Shown here: positions 42,301-64,000 of the stretch, in pieces
Numbering within the stretch: the stretch's first letter is position 1
Layout: each line of letters starts with the position of its first letter
Translations under genes and position numbers: made by a program
NCBI GenBank assembly: GCA_944474755.1
Contig: OX104116.1
Location: forward strand, 5,583,547 to 5,647,546
Length of the DNA: 64,000 nucleotides
Reading direction: 5' to 3'
Source: Limnoperna fortunei
Lineage: Eukaryota > Mollusca > Bivalvia > Mytilida > Modiolidae
The notes under the pieces: generated by a model
What the model was told of the DNA's origin: nothing
Database searches by the model: none
Seen by the model: the letters and a program-made list of their open reading frames with translations, nothing else

Positions 42301-45300
42301 TATTGTGTATCCTCTTAGACAAAATGAATCATTGCCAATCTAACTAAATGTTTCGCTGCTAAAATATACTTAATCACCTGACTTATTCACTCTAAAACGT
42401 TAACGATATGTAAATATAATATTTCTCGTATTTATTTATAGCTCTCTAAATTCGGAGCGGGTGTTTGTACACCGTAATCTTTGTGTTGCAATCATATTCG
42501 CACAGCTGTGCTTTCTGTCTGGAATTAAGGCTGTCCAATACAAGGTTCGTAATATAAAATTGATCTACATACATACTCATTTTTCATTTTCGTAGATTTG
42601 TTTGGTTTTAGATAAAATTAAACCGGTTGGTTTATTTATTTATTAGGTGAGTTCGTTTTAACAGAGATGCCAACATTTTGTAGCTGTATGCTGCAGATTG
42701 ATGTTCGCGAATGAAGTCGGAACATCTTGCAAACTACTGAACACTTATAAAACAAAAATCAACCAATAAATTACTAAACTGTGTTGATATACCTTATTTT
42801 AAATTGTACAAGAAAATTAGACAGCATGGCAAATCAGGAGAATGGTAAAAGAAGTCGTGTAGGCCTGGATTCATGAAACAGTTCATATTTGAGGATTTCC
42901 AGAATTTTTCAATTCAAATATGGAACATTTAACATTCTGGAAACTTTACATTGAGATCAATCTGGAAATAGTGTTACTGGTATGCTTAAGTGTTTAATGC
43001 TAGTTTATCTTGGTTCCGTTTATGAAAAGAAGTAATTTGAAAGTGTTTTATTGTTGCCTAAACATACTTGAGCTATGCTGAAGTGTTTTCTGTTTGTTCC
43101 TTTTGGTAACTTGTATGTAGAAACGTTATTTAATATGCTTGTTTTGTTTCCCAAACTTATATAGGCATAATAGATACATCATTTACCCAGAAAAAAATGG
43201 CAGCACTTTTCATCATGAACAAAAGAAATATGTCTCTAAGTTTGCACATTAAAACCATACCATTTGAAGTGGATATTAAAGTTAATGAAATGTTTTGTTA
43301 ACAACAGATGACATTCTGTGCTTTTTTTTTTAATATCTTCAAACAAATAGTTGCACATTTCAGATTAATGTCAATAGTCATGCCAAAATGTGATAACAAT
43401 GACACAAATGTCAAATGAGACATTTAACGTCAATAAATCTCACAGCTAAATAATTTTGATGCAAAATATTACGTTTTCCATTTTATCTGCTATTTGATTG
43501 GGACCTGAGACTTTTCCATGGCTCGAATCAATAAACACATTTGCTTAGCGTGCCCAAAAAGTAGTGAATAAAGGATAAGAACAGGTTAATAAAAACATAG
43601 GATACTCCTCCAATCTTTAGAAAAAAAATTAAGTATGTAAATTTTAGAACCCTTGTGTAGCGGCTACAATGAGTACTCTTATCGACATCTACAAAAGAGT
43701 GGCACCAATTTAACACGTCAAAAGCTACGGTCGGTGGCCAGGCTACCGTATGACAGCTTTCCGACAACAAGTAGGCAAATCCTATTTTCCTTTTATGGAC
43801 GCAAGTTGAAGCTTTGTGGGTCCAGCCTTGCGATCCTTACTAGTATTTCATACTTAGAAAAGTGATAATATGTTGTAAATATACAACGTAAGATTGTCTA
43901 GTTGTTGTAGCACACATGTATGATAGGGAAACATTTCTTGTCGTCCGTCGAGTAATATTGATTTGTGTGGTCACATAAATGTTTATTTTATTTAAGTTCA
44001 TAACTGCGCAGTTATACATCGGAGTTATATTTTTAATCTTGTGCTATTTCAGGTAGTTTGCGCTATTGTAGCTGTTGTTCTTCACTATTTCTACACAGCA
44101 GTATTTGTATGGATGTTAGTGGAGGGTTTGCTATTGTACAGCAAAGTAGTACAAGTCTTTGGCACAGAGAAGTCACGTGTAACGTACTACTGTATGTTTG
44201 GATGGGGTAATTAAAGTGTTTAACGTGTTAGGCTTGATAAACAACTGCTTTGCTAAGTCATGACTGTGTATGATTTATAATGTACGCATCTCCTTCTTGT
44301 GTCTTGTACTTGGCAGACATGTGATAATTAAATGAAATCGAAATATATGATCAAAACATACAACAAAAACTAAAAAAGAAAACAGGGCGGGATGAAAAGC
44401 ATGGCAAAATCTGGACGCTTTAGTTAACAAAAGGACTAGGACTAGTGATAAATTTAATAATACGTCAATATGTGAGGGTAGTGAAGATCTTTAAATTGAT
44501 TGGCTGGTTAAACCTAGATCTATAACGCCAGAATATACAATTTAAAGCTGCTTCCGTCAATTCTTAACCTAAAATAATTGGACAAATCTAGATGGTGAAT
44601 CAACTGCAAGTATTTATAGTCAGTTCTGATCTATATAGTCCCGAGGGAAAGTTAATATATGCATCGTTACTAGTACCTGACAAATTTCCTTGTATGTTAT
44701 ATTTTGTTTTAAAAAATGTCCTGCAATATTTTGACTGACAATGTCATATAGTGTCCCAAATGATACATAGTAAATAAATAATTCCGTTTTACAGTTGCCT
44801 ACTAATTATTTCAAACAATCTATATTATCAAATAATTAAATATTTTTTATGGTTTAATATTTCTGTTTTAATATCACATTGATAACTGTCCTTTAGGAGT
44901 TCCTGTTGTAATGGTAGCGGTTTCTGCCTCTGCTGACTGGAATGGGTATGGGACAGAAACAAGGTATTTTATGCTGTAATATAATTTTTAGACAGCCAAG
45001 GTTCCTAACCTGTTGTACGAGGGTGACCGAGCTCGTTTTGCTGGTAGTAGTAATTGCTTAAGCTGAGCTGAATGACGCTTATTAACATTTGGCGTTGTAT
45101 ATATAAATATACAAATAAATATTTTTTAGCGAAATAAATGAGAATATTGAAACATAAGTAAAGGTGGGGATTTAAAAATATGCGTAGAAACATATTAATA
45201 TAAATACAGTGTATACCGGAAACAAAAAGTAAAACAGACTTAATAACCAATGAAGTTATTGCATATACTAATAAACAGGAAGAATTAAAAACATGTCTAA

Positions 45301-48300: not shown

Positions 48301-50506
48301 AAAAATTGACAGAAGTACGGATTGACATATCAAATAATACAAAGCTTTATGATGAAAAAACAACTGTGCAAAACAAACCAATATCACAAGTCGAACGATT
48401 TAAGTTTCCTGTAGAACATTTTTTTATTAAACGCAATGTGGTCAGATTGTGCTCATTAATGAATAGTAATGCAGATAGATGGTTTCATAATTATCGTCAT
48501 AATGCCTATATGCATTATCACCAGACTAGATTGTCCTCACGTGATTCAGGGTTACGATCCTTTGTTTGAACGTTAATGCATCTGGTGCGTCTTAATAATC
48601 CACCGAAAGAATTGCAACACTGTCTGAATCACAGTGTTAGGCTTTTGTCTGAAAGCAGGCTACGACTAGAAAACAAGCAACCACTTTACAGTATGTGTAG
48701 CTTGAAGTCAGCTAGAGGAAATTGCATGAATAGAATTCTTGAATTTTGCAACAAACTTACTATTACTATGTAATATTTAAACAGTAGGTTTGCCTTCTAC
48801 ACTAATAATGCCTTCAACTTAGCGTTTGTATTGGCAATCTTTAAAAAGAAAATCACTTTTCCTAGCTTTATCAAATTATCAGGAAAATAAAGCCCCCTCC
48901 CCGGTTTTAGAAACTATTGTGAAATTATCTTGTTTCTGTTGTAGATTAACACCGTGTTTAAAAAAAAAGAAACAATCAAGTAGACAAGATTGAGCCCACA
49001 GAAAAATACGAAATGAAACAAAATTGCAACAACTTGGTCGCAGACAAATCTGTCAAATACCCGTAGTCAATATCGTAGTTACTTATAGTGTGTTACTCGG
49101 CAGTCAACATCGTGGTCCGAATAAACTCAATCAGCACTAAACAAGCAGGCAAGCAATACCACTCTAAAGGAAAATCAACCTTTAACAAGCAGGCCCACTG
49201 GGCCATAACAAATAAAAATACATTGTGTGCGTTCGAAATAACGGAATATCAATTATATGTTTTCAGCTGTTGGCTTTCAACTAACACTGGAGCTATATGG
49301 GCTTTTGTTGGACCAGCTATAGCTATAATCCTGGTAAACTGTTGTTTTTTACTTCAATTGTAGAAGTAATTGATGTAAATAATTAATTAGTCAATGTTTT
49401 GTTGAGACTGAGAACTTACTGAACTACTACATATATGTAATAAAGGTAATAACAAAATAAAGAACACAAAAAAACCAATAAAAATTCAAATTCTAAGAAA
49501 CCGGCAACTAATGAACCAAAAAATGAAGCTACTACAGTGGTCATAACTTGGAATAGGCATTCCAAAAGAAATTTTAGGTATAAACTATGTTTAATTGTAT
49601 GCTATACCTCCCTCTTCCAATACTGTAGTTATGTGCTGCCTAAAACGGTTGGGTATCACTAGTCAGTAAAAGTTGTATTCAATGATTATCGAAGAAGAAT
49701 CACCGTGTACTGAATTAAAAAATTGAGAAAATGTCTTCAATCATACTTTCAAAAGTTGTAGTCATATTTGTCAATTAAGAAATGGTCATTCAAACATCAT
49801 TGAAAATAACATCAATATAATTTACTTTAGAAATTAATTGTAAAAACATAAACTTGTAACAATTCCAAACATTAGATACATTAAAAATTTCTTAGATCAT
49901 CTATAACAAAACAACATATTTATATGATATGAAAGCAAGAATTAAAAGATTAACTTAACGTTATATTTCATATAATAATTTATCCAATACTGAATTATCT
50001 AACTAGAAAAAAGTGTTATTCAGTCATTTTGTTTAGGCATAAAAAAAGCCTACACACACACTCAACGCAATAAACAAGTCAACACTAAAACTATGGCCAC
50101 GACAATTGTTATTTAAGTTGAAACACGTTAAACAATATGATATATTATTAACTATGGGAAGCACCTGTTTATGTATACGTGTTCTATATTTAGCACCTGC
50201 TTATGTATACGTGCTCTATATTTAGCACCTCTTTATGTATACGTGTTCTATATTCAGCACCTCTTTATGTATACGTGTTCTATATTTAGCACCTCTTTAT
50301 GTAAACGTGTTCTATAATTTATGTATACGTGTTCTATTTTATGTATACGTGTTCTATATTTAGCACCTCTTTATGTATACTTGTTCTATATTTTATGTAT
50401 ACGTGTTCTATATTTTGTAGGTAAATATTGTTATCTTGTGGATGGTCATCAGAATAGTTATATCATCAGCAAAACATGAACGAAGAACTGAATACAACCA
50501 AATAAG
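9290..50506 (+). CDS. CTLD-GAIN-7TM adhesion GPCR, latrophilin-like (23 exons, 3' end beyond window)
   Basis: Spliced gene giving about 850 residues within the window. Domains in order: signal peptide (about 1-22), CTLD1 (about 28-158), CTLD2 (about 160-291), Ser/Thr-rich linker (292-401), GAIN domain (about 402-657) with GPS at 612-652, then TM1-TM5 and the start of ICL3 (658-850). Family knowledge: adhesion GPCRs sit in the plasma membrane. The GAIN domain self-cleaves at the GPS, leaving an extracellular fragment bound to a 7TM part activated by the tethered Stachel peptide. The 7TM part resembles latrophilins: HRNLC in TM2, WMLVEG in TM3, GWGVP at TM4, SCWLS in ECL2 and a Cys729-Cys801 pair. 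I see no RBL/olfactomedin region and no obvious HRM domain. All 22 junctions keep frame with GT-AG borders, which makes the model strong. The last TMs and C-tail are not in the window. Ligand unknown. Confidence 0.9.
9305..10103. other. Intron 1 and left part of intron 2
   Basis: Intron 1 spans 9305-9649 and intron 2 starts at 9699. Apart from exon 2 nothing else was recognised. Confidence 0.6.
9650..9698 (+). CDS. Exon 2, signal peptide core
   Basis: A T-rich tract and ACAG acceptor at 9649 precede 49 nt, followed by a GTAAGT donor at 9699. It encodes a hydrophobic stretch (YYALLNYLVLCVSS) ending in phase 1. The split codon completes Ala in exon 3, so the likely signal peptidase site is around VSSA-SPT. 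Phase and hydrophobicity both support the call. Confidence 0.75.
10104..10792. repeat. 49-bp minisatellite in intron 2, about 14 copies
   Basis: Unit contains ACTATCACATGGCT, TATCGGTAACTATGATCTGG and TTGACGGGTATTTA. It ends about 155 bp before the exon 3 acceptor and is not exon-derived. Confidence 0.93.
10947..11176 (+). CDS. Exon 3, N-terminal two-thirds of CTLD1
   Basis: Acceptor TTTCTCTAG at 10946 and donor GTAAGT at 11177. It encodes CFEGWTWLSGQCY, then WDDAHQYC and FWIGLKSN, the standard long-form C-type lectin start with an extra N-terminal Cys pair and the WIGL strand. It ends in phase 0. The exon is preceded by a 49-bp array and followed by an intron with a 3.5-kb G-rich array. Confidence 0.92.
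11177..11889. other. Left part of intron 3, with SINE fragment and three CREs
   Basis: A plus-strand SINE fragment (TAGTTCGTCTACTATTGATC) lies at about 11455-11530. Three TGACGTCA palindromes follow at 11535, 11588 and 11620. The rest is unremarkable. Confidence 0.6.
11890..15411. repeat. 25-bp G-rich minisatellite in intron 3, about 140 copies
   Basis: Unit is close to GGGATTGTGGTGTGGGTAGG plus CTGTT. It is strongly G-rich on the sense strand, with multiple GGG runs per unit, so G-quadruplex formation in DNA or pre-mRNA is plausible. A stray 38-bp copy lies at about 15963-16000. Confidence 0.95.
15688..15757 (+). CDS. Exon 4, CTLD1 middle
   Basis: Acceptor ATAACAG at 15687, donor GTAGTA at 15758. 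It encodes GTGWTWTDGRSNQYNSFSQD, the W-x-WTDG strand that follows WIGL in CTLDs. Enters in phase 0, leaves in phase 1. No EPN or QPD sugar-specificity motif is present in the long loop. Confidence 0.9.
15758..16597. other. Intron 4, unique part
   Basis: Unique AT-rich sequence except for 15963-16000, which matches about 14991-15027 of the upstream G-rich array (CTGGGCTGTTTGGGATTATG), isolated 550 bp beyond the array end. Confidence 0.6.
16598..16798. repeat. 51-bp G-rich tandem repeat, 4 copies
   Basis: Near-identical units start GGGGTTGGGGGCGGGGCAGA and continue through TATGTGCGGCCTGTAGAAAG. Ends 50 bp before the exon 5 acceptor. Guanine runs suggest quadruplex potential. Confidence 0.95.
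16849..16959 (+). CDS. Exon 5, CTLD1 C-terminus
   Basis: Acceptor AATTATAG at 16848, donor GTAAGG at 16960. It encodes GQCVLMNGRYWYQKDCD...FICE, the final conserved Cys residues and FICE strand of the fold. The usual WND calcium motif is replaced by RYWYQKDC, so classical calcium-dependent sugar binding is unlikely. Ends in phase 1. Confidence 0.9.
16960..19159. other. Intron 5 with several foldback remnants
   Basis: Contains an inverted-repeat element bounded by AGCGCCATAAA and TTTATGGCGCT (17347-17491), a copy of the GCCGTTTCATAAAG foldback (18002-18072), and an imperfect hairpin with GAAGTTTCAT/ATGAAACTTC ends (18638-18753). GC-rich GGCGCGACG sequence lies near 17190-17225. No coding sequence found. 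Confidence 0.55.
19160..19337 (+). CDS. Exon 6, N-terminal part of CTLD2
   Basis: Acceptor GTTTGCAG at 19159, donor GTATGT at 19338. It encodes ECEIRNGW, HHCIKIEQGNKTWHKSREYC and ADLIVLDD, matching the first helices of a second C-type-lectin-like domain. The split Glu codon joins exon 5 directly, so almost no linker separates the two CTLDs. Ends in phase 2. Confidence 0.9.
19338..20324. other. Introns 6 and 7
   Basis: Short introns (19338-19673, 19785-20324) on both sides of exon 7. AT-rich, nothing else recognised. Confidence 0.6.
19674..19784 (+). CDS. Exon 7, CTLD2 middle
   Basis: Acceptor CTTTTCAG at 19673, donor GTAAGT at 19785. It encodes LWIGLYYNDTVKSFVWVNGS, the WIGL and W-x-NG strands of the CTLD, with two possible N-glycosylation sequons (NDT, NGS). 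Enters in phase 2 and leaves in phase 2. Confidence 0.9.
20325..20434 (+). CDS. Exon 8, CTLD2 C-terminus
   Basis: Acceptor TATTTCAG at 20324, donor GTAAGT at 20435. It encodes ARQCAALGPIGLVTQSD, SCDIRLGFICIL, carrying the last three cysteines of the fold. As in CTLD1, the WND calcium motif is absent. Ends in phase 1. Confidence 0.9.
20435..21713. other. Intron 8 with a small A-rich tandem repeat
   Basis: A 29-bp repeat (AAGGAACCAAAGGAAACACT plus TTACAATAT) has about five copies at 21062-21213. The rest is AT-rich without features. Confidence 0.7.
21714..22042 (+). CDS. Exon 9, Ser/Thr-rich linker with 10-residue repeats
   Basis: The acceptor TTTTCAAG at 21713 fits the phase left by exon 8; the donor GTAGGA is at 22043. 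The 109 codons are rich in Thr, Ser and Asp and include three tandem copies of TQDTVLPDTI (positions about 21906-21995), a mucin-like or flexible stalk between lectin domains and GAIN. The C-terminal DYVVSQLTQAAYK may start the GAIN helices. An internal GTAAAAATTG is a weaker donor and using it would lose the repeats. Confidence 0.8.
21906..21995 (+). repeat. Coding 30-bp repeat, 3 copies
   Basis: Three near-identical 30-bp units inside exon 9 (ACCCAGGACACAGTACTGCC plus TGATACTATT) add 10 residues each (TQDTVLPDTI) without frame change. Confidence 0.92.
22182..23454. repeat. 53-bp minisatellite in intron 9, 24 copies
   Basis: Unit runs GTTTGGTTCAAGTTTTCCTG, GTGAGACATGATGTATACAA, ACTCGCGTCTAAC. 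Copies differ at few sites (GATG/GAAG, CATG/CAGG, GTCT/GTGT). Each unit carries CTG|GTGAGA, a fair 5' splice-site match. Confidence 0.96.
23455..23983. other. Intron 9 between arrays
   Basis: Contains two diverged GAGGT(C)AAG-GTCAGGTGAC blocks at about 23650-23755. Otherwise nothing. Confidence 0.5.
23984..24457. repeat. 47-bp minisatellite before exon 10, 10 copies
   Basis: Unit contains ATGAGAGGTACTAACTAATA, TGATTCTGGCGTAGATGATA. The last copy stops 13 bp before the exon 10 acceptor AG and merges into its polypyrimidine tract. It includes TACTAAC, identical to the classical branch-point consensus, in most copies. Confidence 0.93.
24471..24584 (+). CDS. Exon 10, GAIN subdomain A helix
   Basis: Acceptor TCTATTCAG at 24470, immediately after a 47-bp array; donor GTAAAT at 24585. 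It encodes amphipathic helical sequence (MTHLLQELLQILANAKDV) of the type that begins GAIN domains. Phase 0 on both sides, 38 residues. Confidence 0.82.
24841..25112 (+). repeat. Dispersed repeat A, copy 2
   Basis: Same family as 9020-9228 and 38581-38852 (GGAAACCGACCGAAC, CCCAATAAAAACCATGCGTG, TAGACACCCGTCGAGTTACT). Lies in intron 10. Confidence 0.75.
25326..25390. repeat. 21-bp tandem repeat, 3 copies, before exon 11
   Basis: TTAACAAGTTATATGATAGT plus T repeated three times, ending about 18 bp before the exon 11 acceptor. Confidence 0.9.
25409..25477 (+). CDS. Exon 11, GAIN subdomain A
   Basis: Acceptor CATTGTAG at 25408, donor GTACGT at 25478, 23 codons, phase 0 on both sides. It encodes IILTILDSAFESNNNGSNFQ. 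It has no strong motif, but position, phase and hydrophobic pattern fit a GAIN helix pair. The exact donor is less certain than for other exons. Confidence 0.65.
25529..27215 (+). mobile_element. 5'-truncated LINE remnant interrupted by a SINE
   Basis: Non-LTR retrotransposon remnant in intron 11. Translated segments show the C-terminal part of a reverse transcriptase (HKHLGLTLSEDESWKSHI, FIRPILEYADVIWDN at about 25680-25880), then GWEKLCDRRETHRLFYFYKM, and after the SINE LPSTVRSWNSLPLAVQSL. A Cys/His end (CECGSVETKSHFLL, about 26655-26700) follows. Frame changes near 25925 and 26560, plus the SINE, break it. It lacks the RT active-site part and 5' end. AATAAA lies near 27199. Clade not assigned. 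Confidence 0.88.
26112..26372 (+). mobile_element. Full-length tRNA-derived SINE nested in the LINE
   Basis: The head GGCCGAGTGGTCAAGGTAG and B-box GGTTCGATTCTCACT resemble a Leu/Ser-type tRNA. The tail runs AAAAACTGGACGCCATGATA, AGTGGCGTTAAACACC and ends in (AAAC)n. A 12-bp target duplication, AACACCCGAAAC, flanks it at 26100-26111 and 26373-26384. Flanking LINE codons resume in frame after one duplication copy. Confidence 0.95.
27465..27590. repeat. ~57-bp degenerate tandem repeat, about 3 copies
   Basis: Blocks GTAGAACCCCTGTTTGTTTT and CACATTCCCTATTT recur three times, about 100 bp before exon 12. Confidence 0.7.
27687..27786 (+). CDS. Exon 12, GAIN helix SSILVEPFI
   Basis: Acceptor ATTTTTCAG at 27686, donor GTAAGA at 27787. 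It encodes ESSILVEPFIRTTMQKLNIT, resembling the helix before the GAIN beta-sandwich. Enters in phase 0 and leaves in phase 1. Just upstream (about 27465-27590) lie three degenerate ~57-bp tandem copies. Confidence 0.8.
27898..28765 (-). mobile_element. 5'-truncated LINE 3' end with (TTATC)n tail
   Basis: On the minus strand, an open frame of about 196 codons (28705 down to 28115, extendable upstream to about 28750) encodes the C-terminal region of a molluscan-type LINE ORF2: SRNKLRTYQQFKKEFEMEKF, IEKGRHRKL and CPLCKTEVEDELHFSIKC. The 3' end reaches a (GATAA)n microsatellite at 27898-27935 that reads as a TTATC tail in element orientation. Reverse transcriptase and 5' parts are absent. Confidence 0.8.
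28766..29419. other. Intron 12, middle part
   Basis: Two diverged blocks with CAGCCGGTACG and GTACGGCATGCCGTACC palindromic motifs at about 28785-29008. Otherwise no feature. Confidence 0.45.
29420..29546 (+). mobile_element. SINE copy, 3'-truncated
   Basis: Head TGGCCGAGTGGTTAAGGTAG, B-box GGGTTCGAGACTCACTG, truncated after CTTAACTGACAA. Same family as 26112-26372. Confidence 0.85.
29674..29902 (-). mobile_element. SINE copy, minus strand
   Basis: Reads as the complement of the family: tail GTTTAACGCCATTTTAGCGT, then GGAGTACGCGGAGAAAAACC and the head complement CACTCGGCCACCTAGGCC. Faces the copy at 29420, so the pair could form an RNA hairpin. Confidence 0.88.
30196..30297 (+). CDS. Exon 13, GAIN subdomain B start
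   Basis: Acceptor CTTATTTTAG at 30195, donor GTAAGA at 30298. It encodes GYILEFTSLENI and LGNVTIQIIQPSVYQP, beta-strand-like sequence. Phase 1 in and out. Confidence 0.82.
30298..30937. other. Intron 13
   Basis: AT-rich intron without recognisable features. Confidence 0.6.
30938..31019 (+). CDS. Exon 14, GAIN strand; source of the 47-bp array
   Basis: Acceptor GTCATTCCAG at 30937, donor GTAATG at 31020. It encodes EDEEITISIVVFNFN...LYEWA, matching the ISIVVF beta strand of GAIN domains, and ends in phase 2. Its last 35 nt (30985-31019) plus the donor are repeated about 65 times immediately downstream. Unspliced continuation reads AGG TAA, a stop one codon past the exon. Confidence 0.85.
31020..34053. 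repeat. 47-bp array made from the exon 14/intron 14 junction, about 65 copies
   Basis: Each unit is TCGTCATCAAACACACAACT + CTATGAATGGGCAAG (35 nt identical to the exon 14 end at 30985-31019) plus GTAATGTTTCAG. Copies retain the donor AAG|GTAATG and are preceded by TTTCAG. Variants are GGGC/GAGC, CAAGG/CTAGG, AACT/AGCT and short units with TTTCGTTATGAATGGGC. The array begins directly at the true donor. Confidence 0.97.
34054..35019. other. Intron 14 remainder
   Basis: Contains a decayed minus-strand SINE tail at about 34160-34222 (TGAATGGTGTTTTATGCCAC). Otherwise AT-rich. Confidence 0.55.
35020..35143 (+). CDS. Exon 15, GAIN beta-sandwich
   Basis: Acceptor TGTTGCAG at 35019, donor GTAAGA at 35144. 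It encodes VIGPILSVTAYTN and HTFVITHGTPL, typical late GAIN strands before the GPS. Phase 2 in, phase 0 out. An alternative donor at 35135 (GTACAA) would keep frame and drop three residues. Confidence 0.87.
35144..35545. other. Intron 15
   Basis: AT-rich, nothing recognised. Confidence 0.6.
35546..35610 (+). CDS. Exon 16, first half of GPS
   Basis: Acceptor ATTTCTAG at 35545, donor GTAAGT at 35611. It encodes SQCVFYDELY, the first GPS cysteine with the C-V-F-x-D pattern. Ends in phase 2, joining exon 17 in frame. Confidence 0.9.
35611..37063. other. Intron 16, left part
   Basis: AT-rich, no supported gene or repeat. One TGACGTCA at 36079-36086. Confidence 0.5.
37064..37669. mobile_element. 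~600-bp MITE with TTAA ends
   Basis: Perfect inverted ends TTAAGGGGATGCAGGACAC (37064-37082) and its complement (37651-37669). The outer TTAA is likely the target duplication, leaving a 15-bp TIR GGGGATGCAGGACAC, as in piggyBac or Kolobok groups. The AT-rich interior has no transposase. Confidence 0.82.
37670..38006. other. Intron 16, right part
   Basis: AT-rich intron sequence up to the exon 17 acceptor. Nothing recognised. Confidence 0.5.
38007..38118 (+). CDS. Exon 17, second half of GPS and Stachel
   Basis: Acceptor TTGTTTCAG at 38006, donor GTATTG at 38119. It encodes NWSNYGC, then CECNHTTNFAILMQ, the C-x-C-x-H-x-T-x-F-A-x-L-M signature. Expected autoproteolysis lies between Thr644 and Thr645 of His-Thr-Thr; the Stachel would begin TNFAILMQV. 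All four GPS cysteines (about 612, 627, 639, 641) are present. Confidence 0.95.
38581..38852 (+). repeat. Dispersed repeat A, copy 3
   Basis: GGAAACCGACTGA, ATTACAAATCCGGATATTGA and AAAAACCATGGGTACACTCA match copies at 9020 and 24841. Confidence 0.75.
39205..39477 (-). repeat. Dispersed repeat B, copy 2 (inverted)
   Basis: Reverse complement matches 4830-5092: TAAATTCTCCGCCCCTACCT, GTAGCCGCAAC and CTGGACGTAAAGCA. Confidence 0.65.
40345..40475 (-). mobile_element. SINE tail fragment, minus strand
   Basis: TTTGAATGATGTTTAACGCC, CATGGCGTCCAGTTTTTATT and GGAGTACCCGGAGAGAACCC. The tRNA-like head is missing. Confidence 0.85.
41857..41960 (+). CDS. Exon 18, TM1
   Basis: Acceptor TTTTACAG at 41856, donor GTAAGT at 41961. 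It encodes HELALDIITYIGCSVSLL..., the family-B2 entry to TM1 (compare latrophilin H-x-x-L-D-x-I-T-x-x-G). Ends in phase 2. A partial copy of its acceptor and first bases lies 15-50 bp downstream of its donor. Confidence 0.93.
41961..42441. other. Intron 18 with partial duplication of exon 18 start
   Basis: At 41977-42014, CTTTACAGCTGGAGGACATA and CTAGATCTGGATA mirror the exon 18 acceptor and first bases (ACAGCTACAGGACATACAT, CTAGCTCTGGATATA). The following AAGTTTTCTGCGG repeats the start of the intron. A short, decayed tandem duplication. Confidence 0.75.
42442..42544 (+). CDS. Exon 19, ICL1 and TM2
   Basis: Acceptor ATTTATAG at 42441, donor GTTCGT at 42545 (GT present, weak consensus). It encodes SERVFVHRNLCVAIIFAQLC, the V-H-x-N-L-C signature of adhesion GPCR TM2. 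Phase 2 in, phase 0 out. Confidence 0.93.
42545..44052. other. Intron 19
   Basis: AT-rich. About 43645-43735 matches part of dispersed repeat B (GTAGCGGCTACAATGA). Otherwise nothing. Confidence 0.5.
44053..44206 (+). CDS. Exon 20, TM3 to TM4 start
   Basis: Acceptor CTATTTCAG at 44052, donor GTAATT at 44207. It encodes VVCAIVAVVLHYFYTAVFVW then MLVEGLLLY, VFGTEKSR and MFGWG. The TM3 Cys729 is the usual disulfide partner of ECL2. Phase 0 in, phase 1 out. Confidence 0.95.
44207..44896. other. Intron 20
   Basis: No recognised feature. Confidence 0.6.
44897..44963 (+). CDS. Exon 21, TM4 and ECL2 start
   Basis: Acceptor TCCTTTAG at 44896, donor GTATTT at 44964. It encodes GVPVVMVAVSASADWNGYGT, which with exon 20 completes G-W-G-V-P. 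Close to the latrophilin TM4/ECL2 pattern (VSA-x-x-D-x-x-x-YGT). Ends in phase 2. Confidence 0.92.
44964..45510. other. Intron 21, left part
   Basis: No recognised feature. Confidence 0.5.
45511..45775 (-). mobile_element. SINE copy, minus strand
   Basis: Complement of the family: TTGAATGGTGTGTAATGCCA, GGTAGGAAAACTAGCAATCC, GAGAATCGAACCCGCAC, TTAACCAATCGGCAACCGAG. Nearly full length. Confidence 0.88.
46058..46305 (-). mobile_element. Highly degenerate SINE, minus strand
   Basis: Residual similarity only: ACGGTTTTACGCCACTATTA, GTGCCCAGTTTTGTTCAGAG, GTCAATTAAGGTTGAAGCCG. An old copy. Confidence 0.6.
46342..46599 (+). mobile_element. Full-length SINE with 12-bp target duplication
   Basis: Head GTGGCCTAGCGGTTAAGGTA, B-box GGGTTCGATTCTCACTG, tail ending AAACAAACAAACAAAA. 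Direct repeats CATCAATGTGAC flank it at 46330-46341 and 46600-46611. Very close to the copy at 26112, so probably young. Confidence 0.95.
46612..49266. other. Intron 21, right part
   Basis: A small ~45-bp triplication (CCATAGCATTGTC...CTGGGAAA, CACGTCTCC) lies at about 47437-47540. Two short open frames at 48306-48569 and 48576-48773 match no family I recognise and look non-genic. Confidence 0.5.
49267..49333 (+). CDS. Exon 22, ECL2 cysteine and TM5
   Basis: Acceptor TGTTTTCAG at 49266, donor GTAAAC at 49334. It encodes SCWLSTNTGAIWAFVGPAIA, the conserved C-W-L and W-x-F-x-GPA of latrophilin-like receptors. Phase 2 in, phase 0 out. Confidence 0.94.
49334..50163. other. Intron 22, left part
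   Basis: AT-rich, nothing recognised. Confidence 0.55.
50164..50416. repeat. 32-bp array abutting the exon 23 acceptor, about 9 copies
   Basis: Unit CACCTCTTTATGTATACGTG plus TTCTATATTTAG. The last copy merges into the true acceptor (TTCTATATTTTGTAG at 50406-50420), so several copies present an acceptor-like TATTTAG. Confidence 0.9.
50421..50506 (+). CDS. Exon 23, TM5 end and ICL3; source of the 80-bp array
   Basis: Acceptor TATTTTGTAG at 50420, donor GTAAAA at 50507. It encodes VNIVILWMVIRIVISSAKHE and a basic ICL3 start, and ends in phase 2. The exon itself begins GTAAAT, so acceptor and a donor-like site are juxtaposed. Its last ~59 nt plus donor are repeated for 13 kb downstream. Unspliced continuation reads AGG TAA. 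Confidence 0.88.
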
Positions 50507-53500
50507 GTAAAAATACCATAAGTACTTATCAGAATAGTTATATCCTCTGTAAAACATGAACAAAGAACTGAATACAACAAAATAAGATACAAATATCATA
50601 AGTACTTATCAGAATAGTTATATCATCTGTAAAACATGAACAAAGAACTGAATACAACCAAAAAATAGTAAAAATACCATAAGTACTCATCAGAATAGTT
50701 ATATCATCTGTAAAACATGAACAAAGAACTGAATACAACCAAATAAGGTAAAAATATCATAAGTACTCATCAGAATAGTTATATCATCCGTAAAACATGA
50801 ACAAAGAACTGAATACAACCAAATAACTACTCATCAGAATAGTTATATCATCTTCTGTAAAACATGAACAAAGAACTTAATACAACCAAATAAGTACTCA
50901 TCAGAATAGTTATATCATCTGTAAAACATGAACAAAGAACTTAATACAACCAAATAAGTACTCATCAGAATAGTTATATCATCTGTAAAACATGAACACA
51001 GAACTGAATACAACCAAATAAGGTACAAATACCATAAGTACTTATCAGAATAGTTATATCATCTGTAAAACATGAACAAAGAACTTAATACAACCAAATA
51101 AGTACTCATCAGAATAGTTATATCATCTGTAAAACATGAACAAAGAACTTAATACAACCAAATAAGTACTCATCAGAATAGTTATATCATCTGTAAAACA
51201 TGAACACAGAACTGAATACAACCAAATAAGGTAAAAATATCATAAGTACTTATCAGAATAGTTATATCATCTGTAAAATATGAACAAAGAACTGAATACA
51301 ACCAAATAAGGTAAAAATGCCATAAGTACTAATCAGAATAGTTATATCATCTGTAAAACATGAACAAAGAACTGAATACAACCAAATAAGGTAGAAATAT
51401 CATAAGTACTCATCAGAATAGTTATATCATCTGTAAAACATGAACAAAGAACTGAATACAACCAAATAAGGTAGAAATATCATAAGTACTCATCAGAATA
51501 GTTATATCATCTGGAAAACATGAACAAAGAACTGAATACAACCAAATAAGGTAGAAATATCATAAGTACTCATCAGAATAGTTATATCATCTGGAAAACA
51601 TGAACAAAGAACTGAATACAACCAAATAAGGTAAAAATACCATAAGTACTCATAAGAATAGTTATATCATCTGTAAAACATGAACAAAGAATTGAATACA
51701 ACCAAATAAGGTAAAATACCATAAGTACTCATCAGAATAGTTATATCATCTGTAAAACATGAACAAAGAACTGAATACAACCAAATAAGGTAAAAATACC
51801 ATAAGTACTAATCAGAATAGTTATATCATCTGGAAAACATGAACAAAGAACTGAATACAACGAAATAAGGTAAAAATATCATAAGTACTCATCAGAATAG
51901 TTATATCATCTGTAAAACATGAACAAAGAACTGAATTCAACCCAATAAGGTAAAAATATCATAAGTACTCATCAGAATAGTTATATCATCTGTAAAACAT
52001 GAACAAAGAACTTAATACAACCAAATAAGTACTCATCAGAATAGTTATATCATCTGTAAAACATGAACAAAGAACTTAATACAACCAAATAAGTACTCAT
52101 CAGAATAGTTATATCATCTGTAAAACATGAACACAGAACTGAATACAACCAGATAAGGTACAAATACCATAAGTACTTATCAGAATAGTTATATCATCTG
52201 TAAAACATGAACAAAGAACTGAATACAACCAAATAAGGTAAAAATACCATAAGTACTTATCAGAATAGTTATATCATCTGTAAAACATGAACAAAGAACT
52301 GAATACAACCAAATAAGGTAAAAATACCATAAGTACTAATCAGAATAGTTATATCATCCGTAAAACATGAACACAGAACTGAATACAACCAAATAAGGTA
52401 AAAATATCATAAGTACTTATCAGAATAGTTATATCATCTGTAAAACATGAACAAAGAACTTAATACAACCAAATAAGTACTCATCAGAATAGTTATATCA
52501 TCTGTAAAACATGAACAAAGAACTGAATACAACCAAATAAGGTAAAAATACCATAAGTACTCATCAGAATAGTTATATCATCTGTAAAACATGAACAAAG
52601 AACTGAATACAACCAAATAAGGTAAAAATACCATAAGTACTTATCAGAATAGTTATATCATCTGTAAAACATGAACACAGAACTGAATACAACCAAATAA
52701 GGTACAAATACCATAAGTACTTATCAGAATAGTTATGTCATCTGTAAAACATGAACACAGAACTGAATACAACCAAATAAGGTAGAAATATCATAAGTAC
52801 TCATCAGAATAGTTATATCATCTGGAAAACATGAACAAAGAACTGAATACAACCAAATAAGGTAAAAATACCATAAGTACTCATCAGAATAGTTATATCA
52901 TCTGTAAAACATGAACAAAGAATTGAATACAACCAAATAAGGTAAAATACCATAAGTACTCATCAGAATAGTTATATCATCTGTAAAACATGAACAAAGA
53001 ACTGAATACAACCAAATAAGGTAAAAATACCGTAAGTACTAATCAGAATAGTTATATCATCTGGAAAACATGAACAAAGAACTGAATACAACCAAATAAG
53101 GTAAAAATATCATAAGTACTCATCAGAATAGTTATATCATCTGTAAAACATGAACAAAGAACTGAATTCAACCCAATAAGGTAAAAATATCATAAGTACT
53201 CATCAGAATAGTTATATCATCTGTAAAACATGAACAAAGAACTTAATACAACCAAATAAGTACTCATCAGAATAGTTATATCATCTGTAAAACATGAACA
53301 AAGAACTGAATACAACCAAATAAGTACTCATCACAATAGTTATATCATCTGTAAAACATGAACACAGAACTGAATACAACCAGATAAGGTACAAATACAA
53401 TAAGTACTTATCGGAATAGTTATATCATCTGTAAAACATGAACAAAGAACTGAATACAACCAAATAAGGTAAAAATACCATAAGTACTTATCAGAATAGT

Positions 53501-56500
53501 TATATCCTCTGTAAAATATGAACAAAGAACTGAATACAACCAAATAAGATAAAAATACCATAAGTACTCATCAGAATAGTTATATCATCTGTAAAACATG
53601 AACAAAGAACTGAATACAACCAAATAAGGTAAAAATACCATAAGTACTCATCAGAATAGTTATATCATCTGTAAAACATGAACAAAGAACTGAATACAAC
53701 CAAATAAGGTAAAAATACCATAAGTACTTATCGGAATAGTTATATCATCTGTAAAACATGAACAAAGAACTGAATACAACCAAATAAGGTAAAAATACCA
53801 TAAGTACTCATCAGAATAGTTATATCATCTGTAAAACATGAACAAAGAACTGAATACAACCAAATAAGGTAAAAATACCATAAGTACTTATCAGAATAGT
53901 TATATCCTCTGTAAAACATGAACACAGAACTGAATACAACCAAATAAGGTACAGATACCGTAAGTACTTATCAGAATAGTTATATCATCTGTAAAACATG
54001 AACAAAGAACTGAATACAACCAAATAAGGTAAAAATACCATAAGTACTCATCAGAATAGTTATATCATCTGTAAAACATGAACAAAGAACTGAATACAAC
54101 CAAATAAGGTAAAAATACCATAAGTACTTATCAGAATAGTTATATCATCTGTAAAACATGAACAAAGAACTGAATACAACCAAATAAGGTAAAAATACCA
54201 TAAGTACTAATCAGAATAGTTATATCATCCGTAAAACATGAACACAGAACTGAATACAACCAAATAAGGTAAAAATATCATAAGTACTTATCAGAATAGT
54301 TATATCATCTGTAAAACATGAACAAAGAACTTAATACAACCAAATAAGTACTCATCAGAATAGTTATATCATCTGTAAAACATGAACAAAGAACTGAATA
54401 CAACCAAATAAGGTAAAAATACCATAAGTACTTATCAGAATAGTTATATCATCTGTAAAACATGAACAAAGAACTGAATACAACCAAATAAGGTAAAAAT
54501 ACCATAAGTACTCATCAGAATAGTTATATCATCTGTAAAACATGAACACAGAACTGAATACAACCAAATAAGGTACAAATACCATAAGTACTTATCAGAA
54601 TAGTTATGTCATCTGTAAAACATGAACACAGAACTGAATACAACCAGATAAGGTACAAATACCATAAGTACTTATCAGAATAGTTATGTCATCTGTAAAA
54701 CATGAACACAGAACTGAATACAACCAAATAAGGTAGAAATATCATAAGTACTCATCAGAATAGTTATATCATCTGGAAAACATGAACAAAGAACTGAATA
54801 CAACCAAATAAGGTAAAAATACCATAAGTACTCATCAGAATAGTTATATCATCTGTAAAACATGAACAAAGAATTGAATACAACCAAATAAGGTAAAATA
54901 CCATAAGTACTCATCAGAATAGTTATATCATCTGTAAAACATGAACAAAGAACTGAATACAACCAAATAAGGTAAAAATACCATAAGTACTAATCAGAAT
55001 AGTTATATCATCTGGAAAACATGAACAAAGAACTGAATACAACCAAATAAGGTAAAAATATCATAAGTACTCATCAGAATAGTTATATCATCTGTAAAAC
55101 ATGAACAAAGAACTGAATTCAACCCAATAAGGTAAAAATATCATAAGTACTCATCAGAATAGTTATATCATCTGTAAAACATGAACAAAGAACTTAATAC
55201 AACCAAATAAGTACTCATCAGAATAGTTATATCATCTGTAAAACATGAACAAAGAACTGAATACAACCAAATAAGTACTCATCAGAATAGTTATATCATC
55301 TGTAAAACATGAACACAGAACTGAATACAACCAGATAAGGTACAAATACCATAAGTACTTATCAGAATAGTTATATCCTCTGTAAAACATGAACAAAGAA
55401 CTGAATACAACAAAATAAGATACAAATATCATAAGTACTTATCAGAATAGTTATATCATCTGTAAAACATGAACAAAGAACTGAATACAACCAAAAAATA
55501 GTAAAAATACCATAAGTACTCATCAGAATAGTTATATCATCTGTAAAACATGAACAAAGAACTGAATACAACCAAATAAGGTAAAAATATCATAAGTACT
55601 CATCAGAATAGTTATATCATCCGTAAAACATGAACAAAGAACTGAATACAACCAAATAACTACTCATCAGAATAGTTATATCATCTTCTGTAAAACATGA
55701 ACAAAGAACTTAATACAACCAAATAAGTACTCATCAGAATAGTTATATCATCTGTAAAACATGAACAAAGAACTTAATACAACCAAATAAGTACTCATCA
55801 GAATAGTTATATCATCTGTAAAACATGAACACAGAACTGAATACAACCAAATAAGGTACAAATACCATAAGTACTTATCAGAATAGTTATATCATCTGTA
55901 AAACATGAACAAAGAACTGAATACAACAAAATAAGATACAAATATCATAAGTACTTATCAGAATAGTTATATCATCTGTAAAATATGAACAAAGAACTGA
56001 ATACAACCAAATAAGGTAAAAATGCCATAAGTACTAATCAGAATAGTTATATCATCTGTAAAACATGAACAAAGAACTGAATACAACCAAATAAGGTAGA
56101 AATATCATAAGTACTCATCAGAATAGTTATATCATCTGGAAAACATGAACAAAGAACTGAATACAACCAAATAAGGTAAAAATACCATAAGTACTCATAA
56201 GAATAGTTATATCATCTGTAAAACATGAACAAAGAATTGAATACAACCAAATAAGGTAAAATACCATAAGTACTCATCAGAATAGTTATATCATCTGTAA
56301 AACATGAACAAAGAACTGAATACAACCAAATAAGGTAAAAATACCATAAGTACTAATCAGAATAGTTATATCATCTGGAAAACATGAACAAAGAACTGAA
56401 TACAACGAAATAAGGTAAAAATATCATAAGTACTCATCAGAATAGTTATATCATCTGTAAAACATGAACAAAGAACTGAATTCAACCCAATAAGGTAAAA

Positions 56501-59500
56501 ATATCATAAGTACTCATCAGAATAGTTATATCATCTGTAAAACATGAACAAAGAACTGAATACAACCAAATAAGTACTCATCAGAATAGTTATATCATCT
56601 GTAAAACATGAACAAAGAACTTAATACAACCAAATAAGTACTCATCAGAATAGTTATATCATCTGTAAAACATGAACACAGAACTGAATACAACCAGATA
56701 AGGTACAAATACCATAAGTACTTATCAGAATAGTTATATCATCTGTAAAACATGAACAAAGAACTGAATACAACCAAATAAGGTAAAAATACCATAAGTA
56801 CTTATCAGAATAGTTATATCATCTGTAAAACATGAACAAAGAACTGAATACAACCAAATAAGGTAAAAATACCATAAGTACTAATCAGAATAGTTATATC
56901 ATCCGTAAAACATGAACACAGAACTGAATACAACCAAATAAGGTAAAAATATCATAAGTACTTATCAGAATAGTTATATCATCTGTAAAACATGAACAAA
57001 GAACTTAATACAACCAAATAAGTACTCATCAGAATAGTTATATCATCTGTAAAACATGAACAAAGAACTGAATACAACCAAATAAGGTAAAAATACCATA
57101 AGTACTTATCAGAATAGTTATATCATCTGTAAAACATGAACAAAGAACTGAATACAACCAAATAAGGTAAAAATACCATAAGTACTTATCAGAATAGTTA
57201 TATCATCTGTAAAACATGAACAAAGAACTGAATACAACCAAATAAGGTAAAAATACCATAAGTACTTATCAGAATAGTTATATCATCTGGAAAACATGAA
57301 CAAAGAACTGAATACAACCAAATAAGGTAAAAATACCATAAGTACTTATCAGAATAGTTATATCATCTGAAAAACATGAACACAGAACTGAATACAACCA
57401 AATAAGGTACAAATACCATAAGTACTTATCAGAATAGTTATGTCATCTGTAAAACATGAACACAGAACTGAATACAACCAAATAAGGTAGAAATATCATA
57501 AGTACTCATCAGAATAGTTATATCATCTGGAAAACATGAACAAAGAACTGAATACAACCAAATAAGGTAAAAATACCATAAGTACTCATCAGAATAGTTA
57601 TATCATCTGTAAAACATGAACAAAGAATTGAATACAACCAAATAAGGTAAAATACCATAAGTACTCATCAGAATAGTTATATCATCTGTAAAACATGAAC
57701 AAAGAACTGAATACAACCAAATAAGGTAAAAATACCGTAAGTACTAATCAGAATAGTTATATCATCTGGAAAACATGAACAAAGAACTGAATACAACCAA
57801 ATAAGGTAAAAATATCATAAGTACTCATCAGAATAGTTATATCATCTGTAAAACATGAACAAAGAACTGAATTCAACCCAATAAGGTAAAAATATCATAA
57901 GTACTCATCAGAATAGTTATATCATCTGTAAAACATGAACAAAGAACTTAATACAACCAAATAAGTACTCATCAGAATAGTTATATCATCTGTAAAACAT
58001 GAACAAAGAACTGAATACAACCAAATAAGTACTCATCAGAATAGTTATATCATCTGTAAAACATGAACACAGAACTGAATACAACCAGATAAGGTACAAA
58101 TACCATAAGTACTTATCAGAATAGTTATATCATCTGTAAAACATGAACAAAGAACTGAATACAACCAAATAAGGTAGAAATACCATAAGTACTCATCAGA
58201 ATAGTTATATCATCTGTAAAACATGAACAAAGAACTGAATACAACCAGATAAGGTACAAATACCATAAGTACTTATCAGAATAGTTATATCATCTGTAAA
58301 ACATGAACACAGAACTGAATACAACCAGATAAGGTACAAATACCATAAGTACTTATCAGAATAGTTATATCATCTGTAAAACATGAACAAAGAACTGAAT
58401 ACAACCAAATAAGGTAGAAATACCATAAGTACTCATCAGAATAGTTATATCATCTGTAAAACATGAACACAGAACTGAATACAACCAGATAAGGTACAAA
58501 TACCATAAGTACTTATCAGAATAGTTATATCATCTGTAAAACATGAACACAGAACTGAATACAACCAGATAAGGTACAAATACCATAAGTACTTATCAGA
58601 ATAGTTATATCCTCTGTAAAACATGAACAGAGAACTGAATACAACCAGATAAGTACTCATCAGAATAGTTATATCATCTGTAAAACATGAACACAGAACT
58701 GAATACAATCAAATAAGGTACAAATACCGTAAGTACTTATCAGAATAGTTATGTCATCTGTAAAACATGAACACAGAACTGAATACAACCAGATAAGGTA
58801 CAAATACCATAAGTACTTATCAGAATAGTTATGTCATCTGTAAAACATGAACAAAGAACTTAATACAACCAAATAAGTACTCATCAGAATAGTTATATCA
58901 TCTGTAAAACATGAACACAGAACTGAATACAACCAGATAAGGTACAAATACCATAAGTACTTATCAGAATAGTTATATCATCTGTAAAACATGAACAAAG
59001 AACTGAATACAATCAAATAAGGTACAAATACCATAAGTACTTATCAGAATAGTTATATCCTCTGTAAAACATGAACACAGAACTGAATACAACCAAATAA
59101 GGTACAGATACCGTAAGTACTTATCAGAATAGTTATATCATCTGTAAAACATGAACAAAGAACTGAATACAACCAAATAAGGTAAAAATACCATAAGTAC
59201 TCATCAGAATAGTTATATCATCTGTAAAACATGAACAAAGAACTGAATACAACCAAATAAGGTAAAAATACCATAAGTACTTATCAGAATAGTTATATCA
59301 TCTGTAAAACATGAACAAAGAACTGAATACAACCAAATAAGGTAAAAATACCATAAGTACTAATCAGAATAGTTATATCATCCGTAAAACATGAACACAG
59401 AACTGAATACAACCAAATAAGGTAAAAATATCATAAGTACTTATCAGAATAGTTATATCATCTGTAAAACATGAACAAAGAACTTAATACAACCAAATAA

Positions 59501-62500
59501 GTACTCATCAGAATAGTTATATCATCTGTAAAACATGAACAAAGAACTGAATACAACCAAATAAGGTAAAAATATCATAAGTACTCATCAGAATAGTTAT
59601 ATCATCTGTAAAACATGAACAAAGAACTGAATACAACCAAATAAGGTAAAAATACCATAAGTACTTATCAGAATAGTTATATCATCTGTAAAACATGAAC
59701 ACAGAACTGAATACAACCAAATAAGGTACAAATACCATAAGTACTTATCAGAATAGTTATGTCATCTGTAAAACATGAACACAGAACTGAATACAACCAA
59801 ATAAGGTAGAAATATCATAAGTACTCATCAGAATAGTTATATCATCTGGAAAACATGAACAAAGAACTGAATACAACCAAATAAGGTAAAAATACCATAA
59901 GTACTCATCAGAATAGTTATATCATCTGTAAAACATGAACAAAGAATTGAATACAACCAAATAAGGTAAAATACCATAAGTACTCATCAGAATAGTTATA
60001 TCATCTGTAAAACATGAACAAAGAACTGAATACAACCAAATAAGGTAAAAATACCGTAAGTACTAATCAGAATAGTTATATCATCTGGAAAACATGAACA
60101 AAGAACTGAATACAACCAAATAAGGTAAAAATATCATAAGTACTCATCAGAATAGTTATATCATCTGTAAAACATGAACAAAGAACTGAATTCAACCCAA
60201 TAAGGTAAAAATATCATAAGTACTCATCAGAATAGTTATATCATCTGTAAAACATGAACAAAGAACTTAATACAACCAAATAAGTACTCATCAGAATAGT
60301 TATATCATCTGTAAAACATGAACAAAGAACTGAATACAACCAAATAAGTACTCATCAGAATAGTTATATCATCTGTAAAACATGAACACAGAACTGAATA
60401 CAACCAGATAAGGTACAAATACCATAAGTACTTATCGGAATAGTTATATCATCTGTAAAACATGAACAAAGAACTGAATACAACCAAATAAGGTAAAAAT
60501 ACCATAAGTACTTATCAGAATAGTTATATCCTCTGTAAAACATGAACACAGAACTGAATACAACCAAATAAGGTACAGATACCGCAAGTACTTATCAGAA
60601 TAGTTATATCATCTGTAAAACATGAACACAGAACTGAATACAACCAAATAAGGTAGAAATATCATAAGTACTCATCAGAATAGTTATATCATCTGTAAAA
60701 TATGAACACAGAACTGAATACAACCAAATAAGGTAAAAATACCATAAGTACTAATCAGAATAGTTATATCATCTGTAAAACATGAACAAAGAACTGAATA
60801 TAACCAAATAAGGTAAAAATACCATAAGTACTAATCAGAATAGTTATATCATCTGGAAAACATGAACAAAGAACTGAATACAACCAAATAAGGTAAAAAT
60901 ACCATAAGTACTCATCAGAATAGTTATATCATCTGTAAAACATGAACAAAGAATTGAATACAATCAAATAAGGTAAAATACCATAAGTACTCATCAGAAT
61001 AGTTATATCATCTGTAAAACATGAACAAAGAACTGAATACAACCAAATAAGGTAAAAATACCATAAGTACTAATCAGAATAGTTATATCATCTGGAAAAC
61101 ATGAACAAAGAACTGAATACAACCAAATAAGGTAAAAATATCATAAGTACTCATCTGAATAGTTATATCATCTGTAAAACATGAACAAAGAACTGAATTC
61201 AACCCAATAAGGTAAAAATATCATAAGTACTCATCAGAATAGTTATATCATCTGTAAAACATGAACAAAGAACTGAATACAACCAAATAAGTACTCATCA
61301 GAATAGTTATATCATCTGTAAAACATGAACAAAGAACTTAATACAACCAAATAAGTACTCATCAGAATAGTTATATCATCTGTAAAACATGAACAAAGAA
61401 CTTAATACAACCAAATAAGGTAAAAATACCATAAGTACTTATCAGAATAGTTATATCATCTGTAAAACATGAACAAAGAACTGAATACAACCAAATAAGG
61501 TAAAAATACCATAAGTACTTATCAGAATAGTTATGTCATCTGTAAAACATGAACACAGAACTGAATACAACCAAATAAGGTAAAAATACCATAAGTACTA
61601 ATCAGAATAGTTATATCATCTGGAAAACATGAACAAAGAACTGAATACAACCAAATAAGGTAAAAATATCATAAGTACTCATCAGAATAGTTATATCATC
61701 TGTAAAACATGAACAAAGAACTGAATTCAACCCAATAAGGTAAAAATATCATAAGTACTCATCAGAATAGTTATATCATCTGTAAAACATGAACAAAGAA
61801 CTGAATACAACCAAATAAGTACTCATCAGAATAGTTATATCATCTGTAAAACATGAACAAAGAACTTAATACAACCAAATAAGTACTCATCAGAATAGTT
61901 ATATCATCTGTAAAACATGAAGAAACAACTGAATACAACCAAATAAGTACTCATCAGAATAGTTATATCATCTGTAAAACATGAACACAGAACTGAATAC
62001 AACCAGATAAGGTACAAATACCATAAGTACTTATCAGAATAGTTATATCATCTGTAAAACATGAACAAAGAACTGAATACAACCAAATAAGGTAAAAATA
62101 CCATAAGTACTTATCAGAATAGTTATATCATCTGTAAAACATGAACAAAGAACTGAATACAACCAAATAAGGTAAAAATACCATAAGTACTCATCAGAAT
62201 AGTTATATCATCTGGAAAACATGAACAAAGAACTGAATACAACCAAATAAGGTAAAAATATCATAAGTACTTATCAGAATAGTTATATCATCTGTAAAAC
62301 ATGAACAGAGAACTGAATACAACCAAATAAGGTAAAAATATCATAAGTACTTATCAGAATAGTTATATCATCTGTAAAACATGAACACAGAACTGAATAC
62401 AATCAAATAAGGTAAAATACCATAAGTACTCATCAGAATAGTTATATCATCTGTAAAACATGAACAGAGAACTGAATACAACCAAATAAGGTAAAAATAT

Positions 62501-63588
62501 CATAAGTACTTATCAGAATAGTTATATCATCTGTAAAACATGAACAGAGAACTGAATACAACCAAATAAGGTAAAAATATCATAAGTACTTATCAGAATA
62601 GTTATATCATCTGTAAAACATGAACACAGAACTGAATACAACCAAATAAGGTAAAAATACCATAAGTACTCATCAGAATAGTTATATCATCTGGAAAACA
62701 TGAACAAAGAACTGAATACAACCAAATAAGGTAAAAATATCATAAGTACTTATCAGAATAGTTATATCATCTGTAAAACATGAACAGAGAACTGAATACA
62801 ACCAAATAAGGTAAAAATACCATAAGTACTAATCAGAATAGTTATATCATCTGGAAAACATGAACAAAGAACTGAATACAACGAAATAAGGTAAAAATAT
62901 CATAAGTACTCATCAGAATAGTTATATCATCTGTAAAACATGAACAAAGAACTGAATTCAACCCAATAAGGTAAAAATATCATAAGTACTCATCAGAATA
63001 GTTATATCATCTGTAAAACATGAACAAAGAACTTAATACAACCAAATAAGTACTCATCAGAATAGTTATATCATCTGTAAAACATGAACAAAGAACTTAA
63101 TACAACCAAATAAGTACTCATCAGAATAGTTATATCATCTGTAAAACATGAACACAGAACTGAATACAACCAGATAAGGTACAAATACCATAAGTACTTA
63201 TCAGAATAGTTATATCATCTGTAAAACATGAACAAAGAACTGAATACAACCAAATAAGGTAAAAATACCATAAGTACTTATCAGAATAGTTATATCATCT
63301 GTAAAACATGAACAAAGAACTGAATACAACCAAATAAGGTAAAAATACCATAAGTACTAATCAGAATAGTTATATCATCTGTAAAACATGAACACAGAAC
63401 TGAATACAACCAAATAAGGTACAAATACCATAAGTACTTATCAGAATAGTTATGTCATCTGTAAAACAAGAACACAGAACTGAATACAACCAAATAAGGT
63501 AAAAATACCATAAGTACTTATCAGAATAGTTATATCATCTGTAAAACATGAACAAAGAACAGAATACAACCAAATAAGGTAAACTATC
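50507..63588. repeat. 80-bp array made from the exon 23/intron 23 junction, about 165 copies
   Basis: Each full unit holds 59 nt matching the exon 23 end (ATCAGAATAGTTATATCATC ... TACAACCAAATAAG) followed by GTAAAAATACCATAAGTACT. Nearly all copies differ from the exon by TCTGTAAAA for TCAGCAAAA and AACAAAG for AACGAAG. A 64-bp subtype lacks 16 bp of the intron part. Copies are 90-100% alike and arranged in higher-order blocks. The final copy decays at about 63580. Confidence 0.97.
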
Positions 63589-64000
63589 ATCAGAAAACGC
63601 AAAATAAAAATATTAATTTAAATCTTATACAATTTAATATATTTCTATATTTATTATACATTGTACATAATATTTAATATTTAATAGTTATCGAATACAA
63701 ACCTTCAGACCAAATATATGATCCGCTCGTACTCAGTATTGCTACGATGAGCGTCAATATCCTGATTAGCAAAAACATTGGATATTTTTATTTTGAGGTT
63801 TTTCACAATTTAAAAAAATATTTGAGTTTACTCCGTTGTTTTTGTTTAGAAATATACTAATCTCTAACTCATTTTGTTTTATTTGTTCGTACATAGTACA
63901 TATCTGTAATAGTCCTGCGTGTTGTACCCTCAACGTGTTAAAATCAAATTGCCGAAACAAATGCAGTCTTTATTTTTTTACATTGTCTTTACTACAATAA
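63589..64000. other. Intron 23 beyond the array
   Basis: AT-rich single-copy sequence. No TM6/TM7 exon is visible before the right edge. Confidence 0.6.

Follow-up and report, generated by a model that had tools for sequence, protein, structure and literature searches.

A 13-kb tandem array of an exon end and its 5' splice site in a predicted adhesion receptor gene of Limnoperna fortunei

The window analysed here is a 64,000-nucleotide stretch of the genome of the bivalve Limnoperna fortunei (assembly GCA_944474755.1, contig OX104116.1, positions 5,583,547 to 5,647,546 of the forward strand); positions below are window positions unless another locus is named, and the exons described within the window, array D with its 3' flank, array C and the 32-bp array lie on the + strand. 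It contains exons of a predicted adhesion G-protein coupled receptor (GPCR) gene and, at 50447..63586, a tandem array (array D) of 171 copies of the end of one of these exons, each with its donor and the first nucleotides of the following intron. The parent exon (50421..50506) encodes transmembrane helix 5 (TM5) and intracellular loop 3, VNIVILWMVIRIVISSAKHERRTEYNQIR, between the acceptor TTTTGTAG and the donor AAG|GTAAAAAT, and ends in phase 2. It is preceded by a TM5 exon with a phase 0 junction (49267..49333). Further upstream are the TM3 exon (44053..44206), the strongest 7tm_2 exon in the gene, and the GPS exon (38007..38118), which joins an exon called exon C in matching phase 2. The TM6 exon lies beyond the window, from 66259 in window numbering (position 2259 on of locus L001), and scores 30.3 bits on its own. 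The intron between the parent exon and the TM6 exon is 15,752 nt long, and 83% of it is array.

A protein was read from eight exons, including the parent and TM6 exons, whose borders are GT-AG and whose phases match; it scored 215 bits for Pfam 7tm_2 and 41 bits for GPS. GPS lies ahead of the 7tm_2 domain, the order that marks an adhesion GPCR. The best PDB match of the host protein was ADGRD1 (8x9s, 239 bits). The best of 55 related proteins was an 'adhesion G-protein coupled receptor D1-like' protein of Ylistrum balloti (71% identity), with Gigantopelta next at 67%. On the basis of its Pfam domains and closest relatives, the host is a predicted ADGRD1-like adhesion GPCR gene, nearest to those of molluscs. 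Twelve of the 55 related proteins were aligned, and in eight of them the chain runs from the parent exon into TM6 without insertion; two others (P0010 and P0018) do not cover the parent exon. The preliminary description of this locus had allowed that the exon might not be part of the gene. The gene structure and the eight continuous relatives support its membership, and the same intron position and phase were found in the paralog L034.

Array D begins inside the parent exon, whose own end is the first copy. Its 80-nt unit consists of the final 60 nt of the exon followed by 20 nt from the start of the intron. Among the 170 spacings, 127 are of 80 nt, 31 of 64 nt, eight of 79 nt, two of 81 nt and two of 67 nt; the 64-nt units are without a 16-nt stretch that carries the donor. 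Tandem Repeats Finder gave the array a score of 19,897, far above chance. A tandem array of this composition had been noted in the preliminary description and is present as described, with small corrections: the copies number 171 (not about 165, and counting the exon's own end as the first), and the unit divides into 60 and 20 nt rather than 59 and about 21. The 171 copies comprise 62 distinct unit sequences in an irregular mosaic order, and the mean identity among 126 of the 80-nt units (the 127 minus the exon copy) is 95.4%. Exact internal repeats of up to 782 bp sit kilobases apart, indicating that multi-unit blocks were copied within the array; a 575-bp block from 50511, for example, recurs exactly at 55344.

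Array D has two features of a splice-donor minisatellite, in that its unit spans an exon end and intron start (60 + 20 nt, compared with 35 + 12 nt in a second array of the gene, array C) and its copies carry what looks like a usable 5' splice site. Most copies had been said to keep AATAAG|GTAAAAAT. AAG|GT is retained in 132 of the 171 copies, 93 of which have the true 9-mer with GTAAAA (the true donor included), while 24 read GTACAA, 11 GTAGAA, three GTACAG and one GTAAAC. The remaining 39 copies have lost it, 33 as units of 64 or 67 nt, four through AAGAT and two through AATAGT. Downstream of the true donor, AAG|GT is thus present in 131 of 170 copies, with the true 9-mer in 92. GTAAGT is additionally present in six units. 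Computed pairing with U1 was the same for the true donor and the GTAAAA decoys, at −6.8 kcal/mol, and was −5.6 kcal/mol for GTACAA and −6.5 kcal/mol for GTAGAA; the other scored donors of the gene ranged from −1.9 to −11.3 kcal/mol. The true donor and a GTAAAA decoy are indistinguishable by sequence alone. The proposed ladder of near-identical candidate 5' splice sites behind a genuine exon is, as far as can be judged from the DNA, really there. Concealment of the decoys by RNA structure was considered and rejected, the z-scores being +0.9 to +1.1 for three pieces of array D and +2.6 for a piece of array C.

The internal copies are poor candidates for acceptors. The pyrimidine share at the five AGs of the unit is 0.33–0.53, compared with 0.40–0.87 for 17 acceptors of the gene, and with no good acceptor the copies could act only as competing donors. 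The consequence of using one is uniform. The parent exon ends in phase 2 (ATA AG), and the frame, if carried beyond the true donor, runs at once into a stop (AGG TAA), so that any decoy, wherever placed, yields the same protein end after TM5. Transcripts with such an early stop are expected targets of nonsense-mediated decay. The suggestion that the array could make truncated receptors is correct in the sense that all decoy products would stop just past the true junction, and incorrect if a range of products was meant, because every decoy product stops at the same codon. Misuse of decoys would reduce the output of full-length receptor and create no new isoform.

The direction of the duplication can be read from the differences between exon and array. 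The exon copy departs from the array D consensus at three columns, and its letters at these columns are absent from the other 126 80-nt units. Two of the three differences alter the protein, the exon encoding A and R and the array V and Q. At the A/V site, seven of the nine covering relatives have A, two have S and none has V; at the R/Q site, four of nine have R and none has Q. Since the relatives match the exon's residues and not the array's, the exon is the source from which the array derives. At the 3' edge, the nine nucleotides at 63587..63595, TCATCAGAA, are identical to those that open the exonic unit (50447–50455), a microhomology at the joint. Beyond this second TCATCAGAA, directly 3' of the last copy, the sequence diverges. 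In random sequence of that composition, the word would turn up within 30 nt with a probability of about 1e-4, and its presence at both array ends is the joint expected of tandem duplication at microhomology. The final copy is 12 nt shorter, which requires one extra event at this end.

The unit appears to be confined to this locus. A 35-place unit pattern had 75 exact matches in 1,335,373,924 bases, all 75 of them in array D and on one strand; a dispersed satellite family was rejected on this result, which rests on exact matches and could miss diverged copies elsewhere. An Rfam scan gave no match at gathering cut-offs. Seven paralogs (L033, L034, L066, L067, L068, L070 and L071) have no comparable array between their TM5 and TM6 exons; the only Tandem Repeats Finder array there with a period of at least 15 was a 35-bp stretch in L070. 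This comparison covers loci with both exons in one fetched piece, and the intervening exon was located only in L034 and L066; a further paralog, L069, showed TM6 only. A separate observation concerns the paralog L035 (contig C9), which at 640–986 has a 173-bp two-copy tandem duplication across the end and donor of its TM3 exon. It looks like the first step of the process that formed arrays C and D.

The explanation that we favour, with a probability of about 0.72, is that array D is a single-locus minisatellite born from the gene itself by duplication of an exon–intron border and subsequent amplification, with the first donor still used and the decoys mostly tolerated. As the junctions suggest, the first step would have been a tandem duplication with its ends in two TCATCAGAA words, the exonic one and a second that lay some 80 nt further downstream, in the intron; it would have doubled the exon end and donor. 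Unequal exchange or slippage may then have raised the copy number to 171, moving blocks as long as 782 bp. The parent exon would have been held by protein constraint while the array copies drifted, consistent with agreement of the exon residues, and not those of the array, with relatives. The true donor probably wins through exon definition and earliest transcription: paired with the only good acceptor, it alone would give an exon of normal size (86 nt), and it would be transcribed minutes before most decoys of the 13-kb array. Decoys may on this account be mostly tolerated, and perhaps mildly harmful near the exon.

Several observations weigh against this explanation. The intact GTAAAA decoys are no weaker than the true donor in U1 pairing, so the proposed advantage of the first donor rests on exon definition and transcription order, not on sequence. 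Experiments with duplicated splice sites often favour the site nearer the acceptor, which makes real leakage to the decoys possible. Two of the 12 aligned relatives (P0004 and P0005) have chains that depart at or after the parent exon, perhaps through gene-model errors, and the length of array D may be an assembly product. Finally, donor loss is not even along the array. AAG|GT is missing in seven of the nine copies just past the exon (50528–51171), compared with 32 of the 161 others. Only two of 162 nine-copy stretches are this low in AAG|GT, the exon-near one included. With other sizes, the exon-near stretch ranked 35 of 168 (three copies), 8 of 166 (five), 3 of 165 (six) and 9 of 156 (15), and the effect was weaker with the strict 9-mer (14 of 162). 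Outside the donor, the copies near the exon are no more diverged than the rest (0.88 per 54 columns in eight of the nine versus 1.04 in 150 copies further on), and the 3' edge of the array is unaffected, with seven of nine donors intact. Array C showed no near-donor depletion. The pattern hints that decoys matter to fitness and would fit selection against those decoys that lie within the length of a normal exon; the comparison is post hoc and its copies are not independent, the 575-bp block being repeated exactly.

Alternatively, array D might be a regulatory ladder whose donors compete for U1 and thereby control the amount of full-length receptor, with copy number as the dial. In its favour, AAG|GT is kept by 131 of 170 downstream copies, 92 of them identical to the true 9-mer and equal to it in U1 pairing, the host gene has a second array of the same kind, and human IFI6 is reported, in a paper citing the original work, to use two downstream repeat units as donors. 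Against it, one of 31 substitution events over the 80 columns of the 126 units falls in the four donor core columns (about 1.6 on average), a count of substitutions that leaves losses by deletion to one side, so the core of these units shows no depletion of mutations and no selection signal. With 39 of 171 donors lost and the core not short of mutations, there is no sign of upkeep, and the use of decoys envisaged in the preliminary description is not supported. The single identical stop from every decoy and the lack of a comparable array in the seven paralogs also speak against regulation, which we consider unlikely. A related and unlikely proposal is that both arrays are splicing brakes of tunable length, in which more than 100 decoys titrate U1 and a share of transcripts that depends on copy number is truncated after TM5 or decayed, most of the decoys nearest the true donor having been disarmed by selection, which would keep the gene on.

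It is improbable that the array is an assembly artefact, that is, a truly short array whose copies were multiplied by the assembler. In its favour, the data come from a single assembly and array D contains long exact repeats; against it stand the 62 distinct units among 171, their irregular mosaic order, the unique flanks and the second, independent array.

Also improbable is a mutational bias by which splice sites of this genome attract tandem duplication. Two of the 19 window arrays start in an exon no more than 70 nt from its donor and extend across it, where random placement of the arrays relative to 34 splice sites predicts 0.34 (P = 0.046), and one paralog carries the 173-bp duplication across its TM3 donor. 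The test is post hoc and from one window, and three other counts gave no excess: two arrays span a donor (3.7 expected), two span any site (4.2 expected) and five span a site or lie within 20 nt of one (4.4 expected, P = 0.44). Chance overlaps are likely here, since tandem arrays make up 41.6% of the window compared with 1.7% in 71 other loci of this genome (281,617 bases; about 25-fold), which were picked by gene family and place rather than at random, and array placement on donors exceeds chance only weakly. Among searches for further gene families, that for sushi domains gave no loci; that for kinases, aimed at multi-exon genes in general, gave 30, all open-frame matches, and no donor rate was taken from them.

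The gene-born minisatellite that we favour has precedents. In human CBS, a 31-bp variable number tandem repeat (VNTR), c.1444_1467+7(16_21), occurs in 16–21 copies and is polymorphic in people (PMC2630376). Going by this name, its unit joins 24 nt of exon end to 7 nt of intron start with the donor, like that of array D, and the title of Lievers 2001 reports reduced CBS activity. Array D differs from it in having 171 copies, and a second array in the same gene. The minisatellite of human IFI6 (6-16) 'provides multiple splice donor sites', in the words of the title of Turri et al. 1995; two downstream repeat units serve as donors according to a citing paper (PMC4526556), and another cites the repeat for interference with splicing (PMC3618361). 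As in array D, repeat units supply extra donors downstream of an exon. The differences are that donor use is reported for IFI6, whereas the donors of array D are predicted from the DNA, and that array D has 171 units, mostly of 80 or 64 nt, over 13 kb, in which each extra donor would lead to an immediate stop. The IFI6 array, with about 26 units of 12 bp, is also much shorter. A further similar process is intron gain by tandem duplication, in which the duplicated segment likewise carries a splice signal; the literature on it cites a case from fission yeast with multiple 24-bp AGGT copies. Its outcome is different. The host intron of array D is old, with the same place and phase in L034 and continuity in 8 of 12 aligned relatives, and no new intron was found in the duplicated stretch.

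A search of the open literature with a few wordings found no splice-donor array of this size. The preliminary remark that no case had been described at this scale therefore holds for size, with IFI6 and CBS as smaller cases showing that the kind was already known. Array D is a much larger case of it, and its scale and its doubling within one gene are unusual. Studies of how a spliceosome picks one of several identical 5' splice sites usually rely on minigenes with few copies. The host gene offers a natural test: its single true donor is followed, at known distances, by 131 intact copies, and the readout is easy, since each wrong choice gives the same stop codon. Variation in array length between animals would allow in vivo tests of 5' splice site choice, of co-transcriptional order and of limits on exon length. 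The array also illustrates how a minisatellite can grow out of an exon–intron border and leave the exon intact.

Array C (30983..34052) is built on exon C, EDEEITISIVVFNFNKSSSNTQLYEWA (30938..31019), which lies just before the GPS exon and whose phases, judged by eye, match both neighbours. Exon C alone has no Pfam match, and adding it raises the GPS score from 41.3 to 43.9 or 44.9 bits. The units, about 66 in number and mostly of 47 bp, consist of the last 35 nt of the exon and GTAATGTTTCAG. Of 68 anchors, 58 have AAGGTAATG and 57 have TTTCAG, and AG follows 55 of the 66 GGTAATGTTTC sites. Unlike those of array D, most array C units thus also carry an acceptor-like TTTCAG, and with a donor and an acceptor-like site such a copy resembles a 35-nt cassette exon. 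Reading past the exon C donor gives GCA AGG TAA, a stop as for the parent exon.

On the acceptor side of the parent exon is a 32-bp array (50160..50420), whose last copy enters the true acceptor and four earlier copies of which have TTCTATATT(T/C)AG. The parent exon is bordered on both sides by arrays that hold its own splice-site surroundings. Array B (22181–23455, 53 bp) and array A (16599–16798, 50 bp) were also considered as exon-end arrays and were not counted, because in each case the supposed exon, as read, misfits the phases of its neighbours. Array A has four identical 50-bp copies right behind an acceptor-like TTATAG, and contains GAG|GTATGT. At 21906–21993, about three copies of a 30-bp (10 amino acid) repeat in a Thr-rich open frame look like a coding VNTR of the gene, and at 11890–15411 there is a 3.5-kb G-rich array of 25-bp units.

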